Shown here one piece after another: positions 4,605-23,349 of a DNA stretch of 33,152 nt (its first letter is position 1; each line of letters opens with the position of its first letter). Location: positions 1 through 33,152 of the forward strand of contig JASEEV010000019.1 in assembly GCA_030019435.1 (NCBI GenBank), read 5' to 3'. Made by a program: the position numbers and the translations under genes. The notes under the pieces were generated by a model that was given only the letters and a program-made list of their open reading frames with translations, was not told the origin of the DNA and ran no database searches. Source of the DNA: Methanocellales archaeon (GTDB lineage Archaea; Halobacteriota; UBA148).

Positions 4605-6682
4605 TTTATTTTCCCCATGACCTTCTCCAATGCCCTCACGGCTCTACAATCCTCGCAGTATTTGAGCAGCTCCAGTTGCTCCTCCATGCTGAACTCATCG
4701 GTTCCCTTGGACCCTCGTATCACATTTGATGTCCACTCCAATGCCGCTTGGGTTATGAATGCTTTGCCGCATTCCTCGCACTTAACGAGCTCCGATTCAG
4801 CCAGCGTGCTCTCCTTTAGATCGACTAACTTGGCAAAATCGAGCACCTTTTCCAGTTTAAGCGCCTCCTCTGGACATGCTTTTTCGCACAGCCCGCACGA
4901 GATGCAATACCCATATATGAAATCGATCTTGTTCTCCCTTCTTATTATCGCATTCGTGGGACACATGCTCATGCATGTATTGCAGATGGTGCACTTTTCT
5001 GAGATGGCAATATCTGCAAATGGAAATCTCGTGTCCTCCTCAACGAGACTTGGCGATACGCCAGTTTTAATCGAGAAGGCGTGCACCAGATCCAGTATGA
5101 CGCTTCTCTTCGCGGTTTTATCGAGTTGGATTGGCTTTTTCTTTTTGAGCGGAGAAGGACTTAAGGCTTGCACGAAATCCATGACAGAATTCACGAAGAT
5201 CTCTGGTTCATCTGCATCGCCTTGGATCTGCTTTACCCGCTCGCCCAGACCAAATGCACCCAGAGCCATGTTGGAAAACTCTACAGCCGACCTATCATCT
5301 TCGATCTCATGTGGACAGTCTTCACACCTCAGCAGAAGAGCTCCATCTGCTCCCAGATCGAAGGCTCGAAGGATGTGTGCCTCTGAGACGGCACCTACGC
5401 ACGGAACGAATAATGGGAGGACGGGGGGATATTGAAGTCGTTTTCTGCCAGCAGAGTCCAGAGTCGCCTCACATTCAGAGCAAGCAAATAGTAGCACCTT
5501 TGGGTATAGATCTTTTTTTGTTTTGCCTAGCAAGATCTCCATCTGAGAATACATGACACCATCTGAGCATTCCCTCAGTTGAGGAAGCGAGATCGGACAA
5601 ATGGCAGAACAGACTCCACAAGCCTGGCATGCAACCTCATCAAATACGATCCTATCGCCATCACGCGTTATCGCACCGTGGGGACATGCAACCTCGCAGA
5701 GCTCGCAACCGATTATCTCGCTTTTTCCGCACGCACAGTTTTCTAAGTTCAGATCCAATGCCCTTCGTTTTTTAATTTCGCCGAGATTTGAAACGACGTC
5801 TAATACCGCGGATGATGGATCGTCTCCGCACAAGTAAATGCCCGTCTGCACAGGATGCGTCCAGTCTCCAATCACCATGATCTGACCCGCTTTTATCATC
5901 TCCTCTCTATCCCGTAGATCGATGGCACCAGTTGGGCATGCGTCCACACAGGCGCCGCATCCATCACAGAGGTCGTTGATCGAATACACCAGACCGGGCT
6001 GAATCGCATTTTTCTGACATGTATTCTCGCACAGTCCACACGAAATGCATCTCTCCGGATCGACTTTTCCTTTCACCATTTCCACAGAAAAATCGCCCAT
6101 TCTTCCCTTCACGTCTTTTACAGATCCTATATGAATCGTCACATCCTCTAGGGCGGTTAACCCCCCAGTGGATTTCGTCAGAAGTTGCACGTTGGCCAAT
6201 TTTGAGAGTTCTCTTGCGATCCTTGTTCCGAGGGGCAAATCTCCGACCACCAATACGTCGTATCCAACGTCGATGATGAATCTCTCAACTTTAGGCCTTG
6301 TCTTCGTGCGATCGATCGCTGCCAGGAGCAAACGCTTCGCCTTTTCGGTCGCACCCTTTTCATCATGAACCCATCCACAATGCTCTCTGAGGTTTAACAA
6401 GATGATGTCATCGCTTTTGAGCCCCATCCTTCCAACCACTTCTTCGAAAATTCGTTTTTTGGATGTGCAGCCTATGATGATCGTATCGAGTTCCTTTCTT
6501 CTGATGTCATCTATGATATATGCCAGTCCGTCTTCTTGACACAATAGATCATGAATCTGGATGATCTCCACTTCTTTCCTAATGCTCCGCTTGAGCTCCT
6601 TGAAGTCGATGCTTGATGTCTTGTTGCACGTGCAAAGAAACATGCCAATATTCATAGCAATCTTACTTTCAGTTGCACCCAT
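4601..6682 (-). CDS. HdrA-like/MvhD-like polyferredoxin
   Basis: Six ferredoxin-type Cys clusters (e.g. CISCGLCENTCQKNAI, CDGCGACVDACPTGAI, CTICNTCMSMCPTNAI), HdrA-like N terminus (MNIGMFLCTCN), central MvhD-like block LLFACSECEATLDSAG...LFVPCVGAVSEAHILRAFDLGADGALLLRCEDCPHE. Start may instead be the internal ATG (MNIGM) at 6655. Confidence 0.8.
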   Translation of the reverse strand: MGATESKIAMNIGMFLCTCNKTSSIDFKELKRSIRKEVEIIQIHDLLCQEDGLAYIIDDIRRKELDTIIIGCTSKKRIFEEVVGRMGLKSDDIILLNLREHCGWVHDEKGATEKAKRLLLAAIDRTKTRPKVERFIIDVGYDVLVVGDLPLGTRIARELSKLANVQLLTKSTGGLTALEDVTIHIGSVKDVKGRMGDFSVEMVKGKVDPERCISCGLCENTCQKNAIQPGLVYSINDLCDGCGACVDACPTGAIDLRDREEMIKAGQIMVIGDWTHPVQTGIYLCGDDPSSAVLDVVSNLGEIKKRRALDLNLENCACGKSEIIGCELCEVACPHGAITRDGDRIVFDEVACQACGVCSAICPISLPQLRECSDGVMYSQMEILLGKTKKDLYPKVLLFACSECEATLDSAGRKRLQYPPVLPLFVPCVGAVSEAHILRAFDLGADGALLLRCEDCPHEIEDDRSAVEFSNMALGAFGLGERVKQIQGDADEPEIFVNSVMDFVQALSPSPLKKKKPIQLDKTAKRSVILDLVHAFSIKTGVSPSLVEEDTRFPFADIAISEKCTICNTCMSMCPTNAIIRRENKIDFIYGYCISCGLCEKACPEEALKLEKVLDFAKLVDLKESTLAESELVKCEECGKAFITQAALEWTSNVIRGSKGTDEFSMEEQLELLKYCEDCRAVRALEKVMGKIK

Positions 6683-6754: not shown

Positions 6755-6979
6755 GTGAAGCTATTCGAGGAAGAGCTAAAATTCTATTATGCGGCGCTGC
6801 TGCTCGGAATAATCGGAGCCTTGTGCATCATAATATTCCTGGCTTCCATGAGGATGACCACAATGATGATCATGGGCTTTGGAATGTTCCTGATCGCGCT
6901 TGGTATTCTATCAGCGTTGTATGCGATCTACCAAGATCGCAAGAAGGGATCATTGAAAGAGGCGTTAGGTCTTACATAA
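6755..6979 (+). CDS. Small membrane protein (2 TM)
   Basis: 74 aa with two hydrophobic segments; upstream AGGTGGT. Confidence 0.6.
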
Positions 6980-9900
6980 AATCCGCCAGTTCTGCTTGTT
7001 TGACTTTGTCAGAGGTGAAGAGCGAGCGAACCTCGAGCTCTAACAAGCGAAGCCGTTGTTTCGTGTAGTTGGAGATATCGTATTCTTCTGCCGTTTTCAA
7101 CGAGATGTCCAGATATTTCTTGACGGTCCCCTCGTGTACGGTCAGTATCACCCTACCACCACATTTTGGACAGGTGCCCCTAAGTGGAGCTCTTCTGAAT
7201 TTTGCATTACATCTAACGCACCGCATTTTTTGTTTTGAGAATGCGCGCAAGTTGCCGACCAAGTCTGGTAGGAAATGTGAGACTATGATGCGCTCAGCCA
7301 CATCCCTTGCGTTCACCGCGCGTACTTTCCTTGCTAGTTTTAGTTGCGCCTCCATTTTATCGATCATGCTTCCTAACGTCTTATATGCGCTGTTGGTCGG
7401 ACCTGCTGCAATATCAGAGGTATCATGTGTGAAGCAAAAGCCCTCGTACTGTGCTGGTGAGCTCAACCTTGCTCCTACTAAATCCATTTTTGCCTCTAGG
7501 TCCTTTGGGTCGGCATATCTCAGAGATGCCTCATAAAATTCCAGTGGATACCTCCTCATGAGATCTATGTTGTGCACCTCGCTATCGATCTCGTTTGGGT
7601 CTATGCGCGTAGTAAGCACGAGCGGCGCATCCATCTTGCCTCCACGCTTGTCAGGCAAGTATGAGCGCGAGAAGTTGAGTAGCCCATCCATCAGGAGCAT
7701 TATACAGTCCTCGTCGCCATCGCACTGGGCGGTAAATAGATCAGAGGCAACGAGCGTGTGATTCTTTTCAACGGTCAGACAATGGACTTTTTCACCCTCA
7801 AATTCCATGAATCTCTTATCAACAACTTCATCCAGCCAAATTTCACCTCCGTCAACTAACGATCTTTGTTTTCGAACTGGAATATTGACGAGGTTGTCCT
7901 CTAAGACTTGCTGCTTGCGATCTAGATCAAAACCAATTTGCTCAGCAAACGTCCTGATGTTGTCAGATGTGATCTTAATTATATTTGATCTGAATTCCGG
8001 TGTCTCTTTACGTTTTCTGTAGAATTCAAAGATCGCTCCACTCGGCGTCCGGGTGGTTTCATATGTTTTGGTAGCAATGCCAAATCGCTTGAGCGATGCA
8101 ACTAGATCCTCTGTCAATTGATCGCTTACAGTGCACGCCCTAACATCATTTCGATTTGATGCGATACTTCCATCCCCGCTGAAATAGGCAGATAAAAATG
8201 ACGCCAGAACATCATTTGAGGAATTTTGGATAATGGTTGGGATCTTCTTTTCATGCGCAGAAGATCCGCAATCCAATATGTTGGTAAATATCGTATGAAT
8301 CAGTTTGCTTGAGATGGTTATTTTCCACTTGTTTTCCTCAAATGAGGTTACACCAAACTTGTCTCTGATGATTCGTTTGATGTGAGTGCGTGGTTTTTCG
8401 TCTGGAGTGCAAATTGTCACCTGGTAAAAGGATTTTGAGGATTCTTGCTTTCTCGCGAATCCCTCGGCCGTATAATAACCCAACACTTTCGCAAGTTCTC
8501 TGTCCACGTCAAACTTTCGTTTAACCACCAGATCCCTCTTGATCCCCAAGCAGGCGTTCTTTGGAACAAAAGTTAACACATCGTCTTCGTTACCAATGAC
8601 GTCGAGAAGGATGTCGAGTGGAATGCTATCTCTATCAACATAGTTATAAAGGGTCTTTTTGTTAATTCGTAGTTTATCTGCGGCCTTCTTGAGGTATGCC
8701 TTTCTGTCTCCAGCAAAGTTTCTTAAAAGTTCTCTGATTCTACCACTGCCGAGACCTCTTATCATCACTTCCTCTTTCTTCACGAAACTGGAGTTCGTCA
8801 ACTCCCTGAGCAAGTCCACCGATTGCGCCTGTCCTCCTAGATCAAGTGACTTTGGAGTGGGGATAGCGTCTCCAACCTCCAACTCCGATGCCTGCACCTT
8901 TTTAATCACACCATTTCTGCTCACAAGCATTGCATGTTCTGGGGTGACCTTGATCTTGCGTCCTGACCTTGTCTTGAAAATCAGAAGGTGTGATGGGGCT
9001 TCGTGAGATGATACCTCTGTTACCCTGCGATATTCTATTTGATTTGTATCGCAGTTGAGTGATGGAGTGTAGATATTTTCATCACATACATCAGCTATTC
9101 TGGTTCCGAAGTCATCGCTACGAACTTCGTTAGCAGCAAGTTTCTCTTCGACGAAAGCCCCTATGCTCCTATAACTCCACTGATTTCCTCCTCGTATCCA
9201 GATCTTGGTGTCTGGGTGGAAACAATTCCTTCGCTTCGCTGCATGGAAGAATGGGTGCGCATAGCCTACGGATGCATTCGTGAAGCCAAGTATTCGTCCC
9301 AGGACTCCTGCAGATGTGTGAGGTGCAAGCCCTATGACCAGTTTTCCGATCAGATCTCCTACGGATTGGACTTTATGATATGCTTCCATCCCATAGTATT
9401 TTATCAACAGATCGTCCACGAAGTTTGCGGCACGCAATAGATAATCGCCAGCGCCCTTTGACAAAATCACATCCTGCGGCCTTAGCTCAATCACTTGGTT
9501 TTCATCGGTGAGAGGCCTACCGTCCTTATCAAGACGGTATCCAAGCTCCCTGAGCTTCTCTAGCGATGTGCCAATCTCCCTTGGCCGGAAGTGCGTCAGC
9601 GGCAAATCCGTTAGATCATATCTGATGGTTCCGTCCTTGAATACGTATATTTCGTGCTTTGCTCTTAGGATTCCCTTTTCCAGTGGCTCTGGAGTCTTAT
9701 CTTTGGACGTTAGGCCTAGCACGCCTTTGAATTTCTCAGGCGCACGTTCGTCCAATCGTTCCAGTGATTGTGCGTACAGGGGGCTGAAATCGATGATCTG
9801 CTTTCTAACGGAGGTTGTCGTCCTACCACAACGTGAGCAACGTTCCTTTTCGCCAGAGGAGATGCCACAACTTGCACAAAACTTCGTTGGAAAAGTGCGC

Positions 9901-11798
9901 TCACCGCAATCACACCGATTTTTGAAGGTGGTGGTGTCGCAACTGGGACATCTTCTGATCCCTAATTCGATCTCGATTTCGCCCATTTTATCGTTTAATG
10001 AACGCCTTCTATCTTTGGCACCCGTTGGGAACAAGACATGGACTGGCGGATGCATTTCCCTTTTTTTGGATTTCTCTGGTCTCCCCATTCGACTGCCAAT
10101 TCGGATCGGAGCACGCTCCCTGATTCGTACGCCGCTTAGTGCTGAGACTGCATCCATTGTTCTTGCATACGATAGAGATGTCCACGTCTTATGCAGATCT
10201 TGATCCAGCCCAAGACATCGAATAAGTGGAAGCGCATGCTCGATGATGATGTTGTCCTCATGAACCTTGTGTTGAACCAGCAACGTTTCCAGGATCCCTT
10301 TCACTTTTGGATCGCTCGGAATGGTGAGCGTTTCATCATATTCCCCTTTTTCAGAAATGTGATTTGCCAACAGCTCTAGCTCTGGGACGGTAATATCATG
10401 CCATAGATATGTGTATTTGGGATGCAGGGGTACATCAAATTTCTCTGATAGCTCGAACGCTCTCTCAGGTGTTATATCTTTGAGATCCTCCTGGATGGAA
10501 GTTTTCTCTCCCAGTTCTTGGACCCACCACTCATAACAATATGAGGCTGGAACGAGAGGATGGGCATTCTCCAGAAAGTCGCCATAGTTGATCAGAATTT
10601 CGCCGACATCGATTATCTCGGCAACGCTTGGACGTAATTCATATGCTTGCTCTACTGATTCTATGCGCAAAACGTCTCCGTTGACCAAGCGAACGGTCGG
10701 TCCCTCTATTGAGTCCACAGGTATTGTCCCAGCAGCCTTTCCCGGCCGCTCGACCTTCATTTGCGTGCCGGTGGCAATAAAATCATCGAGAAGTATCATC
10801 GTTGCAGGGTGAATCCCAGCAGTGGCATAGCCCGAATTGCGCGAGCGTCCATATCGCAATCGAAATCCCCCTTTGGCGGAGGGATGTGAGAAGACCGGTC
10901 GCCCTGCTATGAGATCCTCTAGGAACTGTTCCCTTGGTCCTAATATTTTCTCATCCCTATGTTTCTTAACGATCAGGGCATCCAACCATTCCCAGCCATC
11001 TAAACCCAATTGTGCTACGTATGTCTTGACCTTCGGTGCCTTCAACGCAAGACCTTCCGCCAGCACAAGCGCCATTCCGCCCCTGACCCTATTGGTCTCT
11101 ATGCGACCTAGGTTCCTGTACGCAGAGACCTCTTCCTCCTCCGTAGGTTCGCCATCTATGCAAATTGGGCAATTGTCGACGATCAGGCGAATTTCCTCGT
11201 TTGAGGGCGTGTATTGAAGACTGGCTATTCTTTTGTAAAGAAGGACTTCCTCAGCATAGCGCTCGACTTCCTCTTTTCGTGGTTTGTATCTGGATATGCC
11301 GATGTTTCTGCGCACATAATCAGCCACTAAGATGGACAATGCTTGTGCAGTTCCTCCTGCACTCCTGATGGGTCCGGAGTAATAGATTTTTAGATAATCG
11401 GTACCATCATCGTTTTTCCCCAGTCCTACGCGGGCGATACCTTCAATTGGGGCGGCTACGATTCCTTCGGTCAGCATTGCCACTGCAGTCCTGATCGCAC
11501 CCTCTACTGAATCGAGCTTGGATTTCTTCCCTATTCGGCCTTCAGCAAAGTCCAAGCCTATGTGTAATGCGGCTTCCTCTCTGGGCATCTGAGACTCCAA
11601 CTCGCGAATTCTTTGCGCGACCCCTTCGATGCCCACCAAGCTTTCTACCCGCTCAGCCAGATCCTTGGCCAGCAGAATCTCTGGATGCGGGGTTGGATCT
11701 GCACCGCGCATCTTAGCTTCTCTCGCTATTTTGATGCAGTGCTCTAGTTCGGCTTCCAGCGAATTAAAATAGGATTTGATTTGCTCAGAGCTCATCAT
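6972..11798 (-). CDS. polC: DNA polymerase II (PolD) large subunit DP2, intein-containing precursor
   Basis: DP2 signatures: zinc-ribbon Cys clusters, [32 protein letters not shown]...[37 protein letters not shown]; 1608 aa, about 1108 aa after removing the intein. Confidence 0.95.
7725..9224 (-). other. In-frame intein (500 aa) in DP2 with LAGLIDADG endonuclease domain
   Basis: Starts Cys ([12 protein letters not shown]), block B TPEHAMLV, dodecapeptide-like [16 protein letters not shown] and [16 protein letters not shown], block [28 protein letters not shown]; boundaries in frame with codons 859-1358. Confidence 0.93.
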
Positions 11799-19110: not shown

Positions 19111-19150
19111 TTTGAAAACTACTATTCAAATGTGAAAACTACTATTCAAA
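19111..19150 (+). promoter_or_regulatory. Tandem palindromic operator-like repeat overlapping the MNT gene start
   Basis: TTTGAAAACTACTATTCAAA and TGTGAAAACTACTATTCAAA in tandem; 18-bp core identical, period 20; preceded by TATA-like TTTAAATA at 19102-19109. Confidence 0.7.
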
Positions 19151-19704
19151 AGCTGACCAAGTATCCAGCCGTGCTAAGGTTGTTCCTTGGATACCCTAAC
19201 AGGAATTTCACGCCCCCGGAGATTTCCAGGATAACGAAGCTAGCTTACGCTACCACTTGGAGGTTTATTCACGACTTAGAAAGGGCGGGCGTGATCACCA
19301 TAGAAAAAATAGGCGGGTACAATGTATGTAGATTAAACCAGAAATCGCCGATCATAGATGAATTGAGGGACTTTGTGGAGTTAGAACTATCGCCTCATAG
19401 GTTGGCTGTATCCAAGTTCGTCGACCGAGTTAAAAAGCTAAAGCATGTGAAAAAAGTCATTCTATTTGGAAGCGTGGCAAAAGGCAAGGAAACGCTTACG
19501 AGTGATATTGATGTAGCTTTACTCGTAGACGATGGGGATCTACTGGAAAAGAAGATCGTAGAGATAGCTGATGAGGTAGTAGAGGAAACAAAAATGAAAA
19601 TCATACCCATAGTATTGACCCAGAGAGAATTGAAAGAAAACGAGCAATTCGCCTCAGAATTAGCGGAAGGAGTGGTATTGTATGAAAGAGCTAAAAGAGG
19701 CTGA
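19132..19704 (+). CDS. HTH + nucleotidyltransferase (MNT) protein, probable antitoxin
   Basis: N-terminal wHTH (PPEISRITKLAYATTWRFIHDLERAGVI), NTase motif ILFGSVAKGKETLTSDIDVALLV; GTG start. Confidence 0.85.
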   Translation: MKTTIQKLTKYPAVLRLFLGYPNRNFTPPEISRITKLAYATTWRFIHDLERAGVITIEKIGGYNVCRLNQKSPIIDELRDFVELELSPHRLAVSKFVDRVKKLKHVKKVILFGSVAKGKETLTSDIDVALLVDDGDLLEKKIVEIADEVVEETKMKIIPIVLTQRELKENEQFASELAEGVVLYERAKRG

Positions 19705-20068
19705 ATTTTGGTTGGAGAGTGCTGAAGATCTGATGGACGCTATGAGCCCAGACAAAGAGAAGTATACAGTCGCAGTCGCTCAAGCCACTCACTCGATAAT
19801 TAGAGCAAATGATGCCCTGACGCTCAAGTTCTTAAAAAAGCGGGCTATGAGACATGATGATGCTGTAAGGCTATTTCGTGATCTCATCGGTCTCAATAAA
19901 ATTCCATCTAAATTTGCCGACTTGGGAAGTACGATCATAATCCCTGCGGTGCAGACAAAATCAAAGGCAGACTATAAAGGGATAGAGGTCAGCAAGGCAG
20001 GAGCTGAGAGATGGCTCAGAAAGGCCCAGAAGTTCATAGAATGCGCCAAAGAATGTTTGAGGGCGTAA
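19682..20068 (+). CDS. HEPN-domain protein, probable toxin partner
   Basis: 128-aa helical: EAEFWLESAEDLMDAM...ATHSIIRANDALTLKFLKKRAMRHDDAVRLF...RWLRKAQKFIECAKECL; overlaps MNT gene. Confidence 0.8.
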   Translation: MKELKEAEFWLESAEDLMDAMSPDKEKYTVAVAQATHSIIRANDALTLKFLKKRAMRHDDAVRLFRDLIGLNKIPSKFADLGSTIIIPAVQTKSKADYKGIEVSKAGAERWLRKAQKFIECAKECLRA

Positions 20069-20073
20069 TTCCT

Positions 20074-20225
20074 TTTCACCACCACCTCACGCTTTCCTTG
20101 AATTTTGTGATTCTCTCATCCTTTTCTGGTTTTCTGAAGACATACAGATGCTCGTGCGCGATCAAAAGAAAATCGTATTTACCTCTCCATCTTTCCCTCT
20201 TGGATTTCATCTTCCATTGGAGTTT
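20074..20225. repeat. 152-bp direct repeat copy 1 (relic of DNA methylase 3' end, minus strand)
   Basis: One mismatch versus 20900-21051. Minus strand reads KLQWKMKSKRERWRGKYDFLLIAHEHLYVFRKPEKDERITKFKESVRWWW*, like N4/N6 DNA methylase C termini. Confidence 0.9.
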
Positions 20226-20254
20226 GATGATGTCTTCTCGCTGTTTTTACTCCA

Positions 20255-20638
20255 TCATGGATCTTTTATTTCCAGAGAACCCTTCTTGAGGTCTATCTCA
20301 ACACAAAATCCTCTTAAGAGATTCAGCCCAAGCAATGCACTCACAGCGGCTTGAGGGGGCAGATCATGGCAACCGACCTTCACATTTTCTTTTTTCTGTC
20401 CCAAAAATTCAATGGCATCGATCGTAATTAAAGGTATGATCTCGGTACCACTGGCAGTTGTTATGGGAATCCTCTGTTTTGCGGATGCAGGATCATATCC
20501 CAACTTTTCAGCAACTTTCCAAGGGATGATCGTGTAGGTGGAGCCAGAATCGAGAGCTGCATTTATAAAGCAGAATCCGGTTTTGCCCATCAATTTTACA
20601 TCTAACGTCAGTATCGAGGCGTTTGGATCTATCTTCAT
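20255..20638 (-). CDS. Retropepsin-like (clan AA) aspartic protease
   Basis: AALDSGSTYTIIPWKVAEKLG active-site motif and C-terminal ALLGLNLLRGFCVEID; 127 aa. Confidence 0.8.
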   Translation of the reverse strand: MKIDPNASILTLDVKLMGKTGFCFINAALDSGSTYTIIPWKVAEKLGYDPASAKQRIPITTASGTEIIPLITIDAIEFLGQKKENVKVGCHDLPPQAAVSALLGLNLLRGFCVEIDLKKGSLEIKDP

Positions 20639-20899: not shown

Positions 20900-21051
20900 T
20901 TTCACCACCACCTCACGCTTTCCTTGAATTTTGTGATTCTCTCATCCTTTTCTGGTTTTCTGAAGACATACAGATGCTCGTGCGCGATCAAAAGAAAATC
21001 GTATTTACCTCTCCATCTTTCCCTCGTGGATTTCATCTTCCATTGGAGTTT
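20900..21051. repeat. 152-bp direct repeat copy 2 (relic of DNA methylase 3' end, minus strand)
   Basis: Same as copy 1 apart from one substitution. Confidence 0.9.
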
Positions 21052-21069
21052 TATTTTTGAGTTGTAGCC

Positions 21070-21294
21070 TTACTTCAAATAAAAATGGATAGTCGGTCTC
21101 AGAACTTCTATAATCTTGATCTCGTCCTCAAAAGCCTCTTGCTCGATGAATTCTTCGTTTTCCTTCTTAAATAGTTCAAAGGCTTCTTCGGGAGTTTTTG
21201 TTTCATAATATCCTAAAATTTTATAATCATCCCTTTCTACAAAATTCGTTTTATAATCTCCATACACAATAAATTTCGGCATAAAATCGATCAA
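21070..21294 (-). CDS. Hypothetical small acidic protein
   Basis: 74-aa ORF; promoter-like TTTAAATA upstream on minus strand. Confidence 0.5.
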   Translation of the reverse strand: MIDFMPKFIVYGDYKTNFVERDDYKILGYYETKTPEEAFELFKKENEEFIEQEAFEDEIKIIEVLRPTIHFYLK

Positions 21295-21512: not shown

Positions 21513-22478
21513 ATGGAATCATACTTCTTCATTGCAGTTTCCACTCGTGAAAATGTTGAAATCTGTAAGCGACATGCTTTAGCAGGATTTACTCAAACAA
21601 TCAACGGAGCATGGGCTTATTCCGAGATAAGTATTGGTGATTACGTAACTTTTCTTTACGGCGCGAGAGCTTACAATCTCTACAAAGTTGTAAATAAGGA
21701 AGCATTAGCTGACGCCGAATCTTTACCGCCTTGGAAACCTCTTCTTTTTAGATCTGGAAGAATATGTTACTTCCCTTTCCGCCTATATTTGGAACCTATC
21801 CGTCAATTTGAAGAGTCCATAGCAAAAGTGGAGTTCGCTTACATCGCTGAAAACCTCCTGTTGCGGGGAGGCTACAGAAAGACACACTTTCAGGCAGATC
21901 AAACAACACTCCAGAACGTCTCGCAAATGGGGAAAATTTTCATAGACAAGGTTGAACCTCTCGAAATGCCAGAGCATGACACATTCATACCAAAGTTTGT
22001 AAGAACAAAGGGTAGTAAACCTCCAGAGCTCTTTCAGCTCAGGGAAATAATTCTTCAGGCTTTGATAAGGCAACATCTCTCTGAAAAGAATAACTTCAAA
22101 ACATTCATCGATCAACTTGGTTTAAGCGAACTCGCTGGAATCGAGTTCGAAATACTCGGAGAAAAGGCGATTGAGGAAGGACATATTGATCTACTTGTTA
22201 AAGAAGCGAGACCAAAAGGTTCAGCGAAGCAAATGCTAATTGAGGTGAAGTTAGGTAGATCGTCCAAAGATGATGTTGACCAACTTCAAAGTTATATGGA
22301 TGAAATTGGCGATGAGTGTGTGGCAGGGGTGTTGATTGCTGAGCGCTTACCTAGAGGTGTTATTTCACTTCCAAGAAGGGACATTCACTTTTGGCGGTAT
22401 GAATTCGAGGGAATCGATATTAAAGAGCCACACACATTTGATGAATTGCTTTCTGTAATTCGAATATCGTCTCTCTAG
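21513..22478 (+). CDS. EVE-like (PUA superfamily) domain fused to PD-(D/E)XK nuclease-like domain; candidate modification-dependent endonuclease
   Basis: N-terminal YFFIAVSTRENVEICKRHALAGF...ISIGDYVTFLYG...YFPFRLYLEP; C-terminal GHIDLLVKEARPKGSAKQMLIEVKLGRSSKDDVDQLQSYMDEIG (D...ExK...Q). Confidence 0.7.
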   Translation: MESYFFIAVSTRENVEICKRHALAGFTQTINGAWAYSEISIGDYVTFLYGARAYNLYKVVNKEALADAESLPPWKPLLFRSGRICYFPFRLYLEPIRQFEESIAKVEFAYIAENLLLRGGYRKTHFQADQTTLQNVSQMGKIFIDKVEPLEMPEHDTFIPKFVRTKGSKPPELFQLREIILQALIRQHLSEKNNFKTFIDQLGLSELAGIEFEILGEKAIEEGHIDLLVKEARPKGSAKQMLIEVKLGRSSKDDVDQLQSYMDEIGDECVAGVLIAERLPRGVISLPRRDIHFWRYEFEGIDIKEPHTFDELLSVIRISSL

Positions 22479-22992: not shown

Positions 22993-23349
22993 TCAACATC
23001 TTTCTACAAAAATGACTTCTCTCTCGGTAAATGTGATATCAAACTTATCTAGGATGTCCAGTCTGCCTAACAAGAATGGCACGGTATCTATCAAAGCCCA
23101 TGCAATATTCTGGCTCACTGGAACAGTTCCCTCTCCAATTCCCTTTATCTCTTGGATTTTTGATGACTCAAGCTGGAATCCCAAGAGTTCTCCGAACGAC
23201 TTTGGAATGAGCGTTACATCGGCTCCTGAATCAACATACATGAAGGCGGGCATCCAAGTTCTCCCTTTGAACCACACCTTGGCAATGGGTCTGTATATCT
23301 TTCCAAAAAGTGAAGAACTCTCCTCTCTGTAGGGGAATTCCATTCTCAT
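22993..23349 (-). CDS. Retropepsin-like (clan AA) aspartic protease
   Basis: AFMYVDSGADVTLIPKSFGELLGF and LLGRLDILDKFDITF. Confidence 0.8.
   Translation of the reverse strand: MRMEFPYREESSSLFGKIYRPIAKVWFKGRTWMPAFMYVDSGADVTLIPKSFGELLGFQLESSKIQEIKGIGEGTVPVSQNIAWALIDTVPFLLGRLDILDKFDITFTEREVIFVERC

Follow-up and report, generated by a model that had tools for sequence, protein, structure and literature searches.

A two-domain EVE/YTH and NucS-like nuclease amid broken DpnII-type systems: a candidate modification-dependent restriction enzyme, likely directed at Gm6ATC

The window, as we call the whole 33,152-nucleotide stretch of archaeal DNA analyzed here, contains a gene for a two-domain protein, in which a predicted EVE/YTH-type reader is followed by a NucS-like nuclease (Table 1). 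The open reading frame singled out by the original prediction is a real one, and that prediction had placed it in an island with methylase relics, an MNT/HEPN module and a MITE. The relics are two tails of a permuted N6_N4 methylase, here termed HPPY after its motif; they lie in two direct repeats of 155 bp, 99% identical (20074-20228 and 20900-21054), which encode the last ~55 residues of the methylase. The repeat pair is a recent duplication or a recombination scar. The 671 bp between the repeats hold a DUF5678-like ORF and an aspartyl-protease-like ORF, and retropepsin-like aspartyl protease ORFs flank the nuclease gene on both sides (20255-20638, minus strand, 2.3e-11; 22993-23349, minus strand, a weak 0.0027). 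As for the MNT/HEPN module, an MNT nucleotidyltransferase gene with a winged-helix start overlaps a HEPN-like ORF (19132-20068, plus strand). In Pfam the former matches NTP_transf_2 at 1.1e-10 and the latter matches HEPN at 0.0012, under the cut-off; the module therefore has support, and the pair is likely a toxin-antitoxin system. The MITE was not borne out, since no MITE-like inverted repeat was seen within 18.1-24.2 kb. Elsewhere in the window, the translation of a 1608-aa ORF (6972-11798, minus strand) reads as the large subunit of DNA polymerase D with a probable intein. The divergent layout of the locus is shared by its closest relatives (L010, L012 and L065; L numbers denote loci throughout): L010 has a methylase start at the contig end, L012 a methylase tail only, and L065 an intact methylase with a frameshifted nuclease.

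Table 1. Positions of the nuclease gene, its parts and the adjoining features in the window.
Feature	Coordinates	Strand	Evidence
HPPY-motif methylase tail, relic copy 2	20079..20240	-	tblastn/profile; in 155-bp direct repeat
HPPY-motif methylase tail, relic copy 1	20905..21057	-	tblastn 53%, profile 3.2e-13
Small-partner-related gene	21073..21294	-	blastp 1.1e-6 to L055 copy; profile match (this copy was in the training set)
Nuclease gene (EVE/YTH-NucS-like)	21513..22478	+	ORF, 321 aa, ATG to stop
EVE/YTH-like (PUA superfamily) reader domain, predicted, ~residues 1-145	21513..21947	+	Foldseek, conservation
NucS-like PD-(D/E)XK domain, ~residues 170-321	22020..22475	+	Pfam NucS_C, Foldseek EndoMS/NucS
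Catalytic residues E217, D226, E244, K246	22161, 22188, 22242, 22248	+
Convergent ORF, relatives beside nuclease in L012, L031, L072	22475..22864	-	iterated profile search

The N-terminus had been read as an EVE/PUA-superfamily domain, and the predicted fold agrees. By sequence, no EVE/YTH match to the N-terminus was obtained in Pfam, NCBIfam, PADLOC or the PDB, and a profile search of the PDB for EVE or YTH chains returned chance matches only; the earlier EVE call therefore required structure. Modelled alone with AlphaFold2, the domain reached a pLDDT of 91.5, and its best structural match in Foldseek was PH1033 (E 4.8e-6, TM 0.60/0.66), an EVE-type protein. MJECL36 came next, followed by many YTH domains, among them that of YTHDC2 in complex with m6A DNA. 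With TM values of about 0.6, the kinship is at the level of the fold. Across 60 homologues F26, W34 and W74 are invariant or nearly so and, as judged from conservation, may form an aromatic cage; at position 85 the window protein has C, as against Y in most homologues. Reading of m6A is not known for EVE domains of the PH1033 type.

The NucS/RecB-like nuclease core foreseen for the C-terminus is clearer. Against Pfam NucS_C the window protein scores 5.8e-5 and 23.5 bits, just under the cut-off of 24, and 59 of the 60 homologues match this family; none of the 60 differs at E217, D226, the E244-x-K246 pair, Q257 or Y261. The window protein is not a full-length NucS, as the NCBIfam equivalog for NucS scores 26.3 against a cut-off of 216, and the DpnI catalytic and winged-helix domains gave no Pfam match in the window protein or among the families listed for 60 members. 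The full-length model, built by AlphaFold2 from a 60-sequence alignment, has a pLDDT of 95.4 and contains both the EVE/YTH-type and the NucS-like fold. Its top Foldseek matches are MspJI, EndoMS, AspBHI and YTH domains, with NucS also present. MspJI and AspBHI are known modification-dependent enzymes. Their whole-chain alignments span both domains with a high rmsd and a TM below 0.2, and the resemblance is therefore one of layout and not of close superposition.

A single scan of species genomes yielded 77 further loci (78 with the window), most of which encode the full-length protein. The hosts include Hadesarchaea, Archaeoglobi, Thermococci, Bathyarchaeota, DPANN, Chloroflexi, Bacillota, Acidobacteriota and WOR-3, among others, and the family tree intermixes archaea and bacteria. 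The isolates Caldicoprobacter algeriensis (L015), Caldicoprobacter oshimai (L044) and Thermovorax subterraneus (L020) are among the carriers. Matches came from 8 of the 397 genomes in the window's own phylum; in one of these the match was weak and confined to the nuclease half. Searches of viral contigs, phages and plasmids turned up no relatives, so that nothing points directly to a virus or plasmid as vehicle. In seven homologue pairs dN/dS was 0.06-0.25, indicating purifying selection; taking this together with the invariant catalytic residues, the protein is maintained. The reading frame is broken in several loci, some of these breaks possibly being assembly errors. The nucleases of L025 and L026, from bins labelled Brockarchaeota and Archaeoglobaceae, are 97% identical and their upstream DNA is nearly the same, which reflects either recent transfer or misbinning.

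The neighbourhood survey of the homologues showed that broken methylases of DpnII-type systems recur beside the nuclease. In a Pfam scan of 90 neighbours, which preceded any hypothesis, N6_N4_Mtase was the top family with 10 members, the next family having 3. DpnII-type systems recognize GATC. In 21 of the 78 loci the nuclease has a DNA methylase or a DpnII gene at a distance of no more than 500 bp, and nearly all of these genes are of DpnII type: HPPY, DpnA-like and Dam-like methylases and DpnII itself, most of them broken, often at the nuclease gene. Of 26 methylase or DpnII-family segments, 24 fall within this distance, although the zone accounts for 11% of the DNA on either side; the binomial p is 3e-21, a value not corrected for common descent. 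The other 57 of the 78 loci show no DpnII-type remains, and members adjoining DpnII-system genes are dispersed across the family tree. A further neighbour, in L052, is a whole beta-class methylase on the opposite strand.

Only by linkage can the HPPY methylase be placed in GATC systems: its intact copy in L140 lies directly upstream of DpnII (Pfam DpnII 2.6e-15), in L144 it forms one cluster with Dam and DpnII, and there is a DpnII gene nearby in L150 and L141 and a Dam gene in L158 and L149. The DpnA-like class has its counterpart on the Lactococcus plasmid pSRQ700, where it matches the second methylase of a Dam-DpnA-REase operon known as LlaDCHI, and fragments of the third, Dam-like class occur in L042, L064, L071 and L082. 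DpnM, DpnA and DpnII together are the components of a DpnII-type GATC system (PMC3573125). In L162, L173, L174 and L175, from one archaeal genus, whole and broken HPPY copies stand in tandem within a few kilobases.

Inspection of the neighbours revealed methylases truncated at the nuclease gene, which in many loci abuts or interrupts them at a distance of 0-60 bp. Measured along the HPPY profile of 341 positions, which was trained partly on these junction fragments, homology stops at 49 (L033), 118 (L036), 141 (L050), 216-224 (L035, L028), 273 (L059) and 295-302 (L030 and L023, with an in-frame stop in L023), and from the other side at 72 (L019) and 261 (L012). L038 was among the sequences behind the DpnA profile; no nuclease locus contributed to the Dam and DpnII profiles. 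Homing at a fixed site was rejected because the junction positions vary. In L050 and L059 a 3'-cut HPPY gene is followed by the nuclease, by a small gene that overlaps the stop codon of the nuclease, and by a DpnII gene that is cut at its 5' side and starts from residue 178 or 80 of 298; this is the gene order of the intact HPPY-DpnII operon of L140, with the methylase-REase junction replaced. A search across the nuclease for the lost methylase halves found none, even at E < 1, and the loci therefore resemble replacements and not simple insertions.

Intact GATC methylases are few in the genomes that carry the nuclease. A strong Dam-like gene is present in 1 and a strong DpnA-like gene in 2 of 51 nuclease-bearing genomes; an intact strong HPPY gene, beyond the copies beside the nuclease, occurs in 3 of 51 genomes of a largely overlapping set. 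In 2 of those 3 (L065 and L073) the nuclease is broken, by frameshifts that are possibly assembly errors. In most surveyed carriers none of these methylase classes is present in intact form, which speaks against a GATC restriction enzyme of the ordinary kind. Both partners are intact in four cases: L038 and L021, where an apparently intact DpnA-like methylase lies 13 bp upstream of the nuclease (the L021 locus being cut by the contig end); L027, with an HPPY-type methylase elsewhere in the genome and no DpnII beside it; and L054, with a Dam-like methylase. Silent methylases, or recognition of other motifs, may account for these exceptions. The window genome (94% complete) has no Dam-like or DpnA-like gene, and HPPY as tails only; the intact cognate methylase that a conventional type II GATC enzyme needs was not found there. 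Since it retains other N6_N4 methylases, the enzyme cannot attack every such mark. An N6_N4 methylase match over the cut-off is found in 44 of 50 carrier genomes, so that the presence of such genes in general is uninformative; few carriers have D12 methylases, most of which are not Dam-like. No genome of the window's phylum combines the nuclease with an intact, strongly matching HPPY methylase, but fewer than one such genome would be expected and this exclusion proves nothing.

Based on these findings, we propose that the family probably represents a single-chain modification-dependent restriction enzyme, likely acting on Gm6ATC, that replaces DpnII-type systems. The EVE/YTH domain would flip out a modified base and read it, N6-methyladenine in GATC being the most likely one; cleavage of the DNA by the NucS-like PD-(D/E)XK domain would follow, a working mode like that of DpnI but from different domains. 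Such an enzyme would destroy a GATC-methylated genome and would therefore become established where the DpnII-type system is lost, often, we suggest, by landing in it and replacing part of it. Recognition of m6A, its GATC context, base flipping, cleavage and incompatibility are all steps that we infer. The scarcity of intact GATC methylases in carriers favors a nuclease that cuts methylated GATC and is mutually exclusive with the methylase. The original prediction of a type IV enzyme against modified viral DNA is supported as far as modification-dependent restriction goes, given the folds, the MspJI and AspBHI matches and the broken methylase neighbours; as its target, m6A in GATC now seems likelier than modified viral DNA in general. 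The broader proposition, that this is a second, non-homologous DpnI-like class of Gm6ATC-dependent enzymes with an EVE/YTH reader, which in mainly thermophilic and anaerobic archaea and bacteria has repeatedly integrated into and displaced DpnII operons and whose target can be told from the methylase remains next to it, we hold to be evenly poised between right and wrong.

A modification-dependent nuclease could instead read another mark (5mC, 5hmC or 4mC, like EVE-HNH enzymes, or m6A outside GATC), with the DpnII wreckage merely flagging restriction islands as landing sites. The top match of the N-terminal domain is indeed of EVE and not YTH type, restriction genes do group in islands, and the EVE-HNH enzyme VcaM4I reads 5mC and 5hmC (PMC7897488, cited in PMC11037411). 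Against this, four kinds of DpnII-system part make up nearly all of the broken neighbours, where a generic island would give mixed systems, and in two loci the cassette sits inside a single DpnII operon; we therefore regard this reading as rather unlikely. The nuclease might also be a conventional type II GATC enzyme in the position of DpnII, shielded by the neighbouring methylase. In L038 and L021 it directly follows the DpnA-like methylase, that is, it occupies the REase slot of the pSRQ700 operon. Intact and selected nuclease genes beside broken GATC-system methylases, as in most loci, are hard to square with a conventional enzyme, and most carrier genomes are without another recognized GATC methylase, which makes this explanation very unlikely.

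That the protein is a NucS-like DNA repair enzyme with no restriction role is highly improbable: its C-terminal domain is closest to NucS in sequence and fold, but a reader domain replaces the NucS N-terminal domain, the neighbours are restriction genes, and the distribution is patchy within the phylum and scattered over two domains of life. A homing-type mobile nuclease that targets the methylase gene itself would account for the close abutment described above; however, the junctions are spread along the methylase, three unrelated methylase classes are affected, the lost halves are mostly gone and not split, and no intron or intein context was seen, so that we give this idea the least credence of all.

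Compared with known systems, the DpnII-system context is the new element here, the EVE-PD(D/E)XK architecture having already been predicted. Fusions of this kind were proposed as type IV restriction enzymes (Bell, Wolf, and Koonin 2020, PMC7641849), with the same architecture at the superfamily level and the same predicted modification-dependent role; that text does not mention NucS and makes no link to GATC. Our literature search found no description of a GATC link for EVE-PD(D/E)XK proteins and no paper in which NucS is named together with an EVE domain. Work on m6A-dependent enzymes from 2024 lists YTH-NTPase and YTH-HNH as future work and does not name YTH-PD(D/E)XK. In pneumococcus, the same chromosomal site carries DpnI in some cases and DpnII in others (PMC3573125), and the family described here would share with DpnI of Streptococcus pneumoniae both Gm6ATC cutting and alternation with a DpnII system. 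DpnI consists of a PD-(D/E)XK domain plus a winged helix (PMC11037411), whereas the window protein combines an EVE/YTH reader with a NucS-like nuclease and has no DpnI Pfam match. By the tests made it belongs neither to the DpnI family nor to NucS, and it may work in a DpnI-like way. With the mismatch endonuclease NucS/EndoMS it shares the C-terminal nuclease domain, the N-terminal domains being different. MspJI and AspBHI have the same order of a PUA-superfamily reader and then a nuclease, but their readers are SRA domains for 5mC. PcaRCI/PcaRCII of Pectobacterium represent a conflict between an R-M system and a methylation-dependent nuclease (PMC8989522), and there, as we propose here, methylase and nuclease are incompatible in one cell; in that case the R-M system silences the nuclease gene, whereas here the methylase is physically broken.

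If our proposal is correct, it makes one testable prediction for the whole family, cleavage of Dam-methylated DNA, and a single-chain EVE/YTH reader would join the few DNA m6A-dependent nucleases. The family may then supply heat-stable DpnI-like enzymes. The DpnI/DpnII cassette conflict would have re-arisen from unrelated parts in two domains of life, and a general method would suggest itself, in which methylases broken at insertion sites reveal the target of a modification-dependent enzyme.

Other genes also accompany the nuclease. The pneumococcal DpnI cassette holds a small second gene, dpnD, and in ~20 of our loci a conserved protein of ~80 aa overlaps the nuclease stop codon (for example, L046:1730-1993). 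This partner has no Pfam match, and dpnD is cited here as a parallel and not as a relative. In L038 a stretch resembling it is fused to the DpnA-like methylase. In the Caldicoprobacter loci L015 and L044, a gene at 5162-5986 for a 274-aa protein ends 12 bp before the nuclease and has a possible second PD-(D/E)XK-like stretch (VAEVK).
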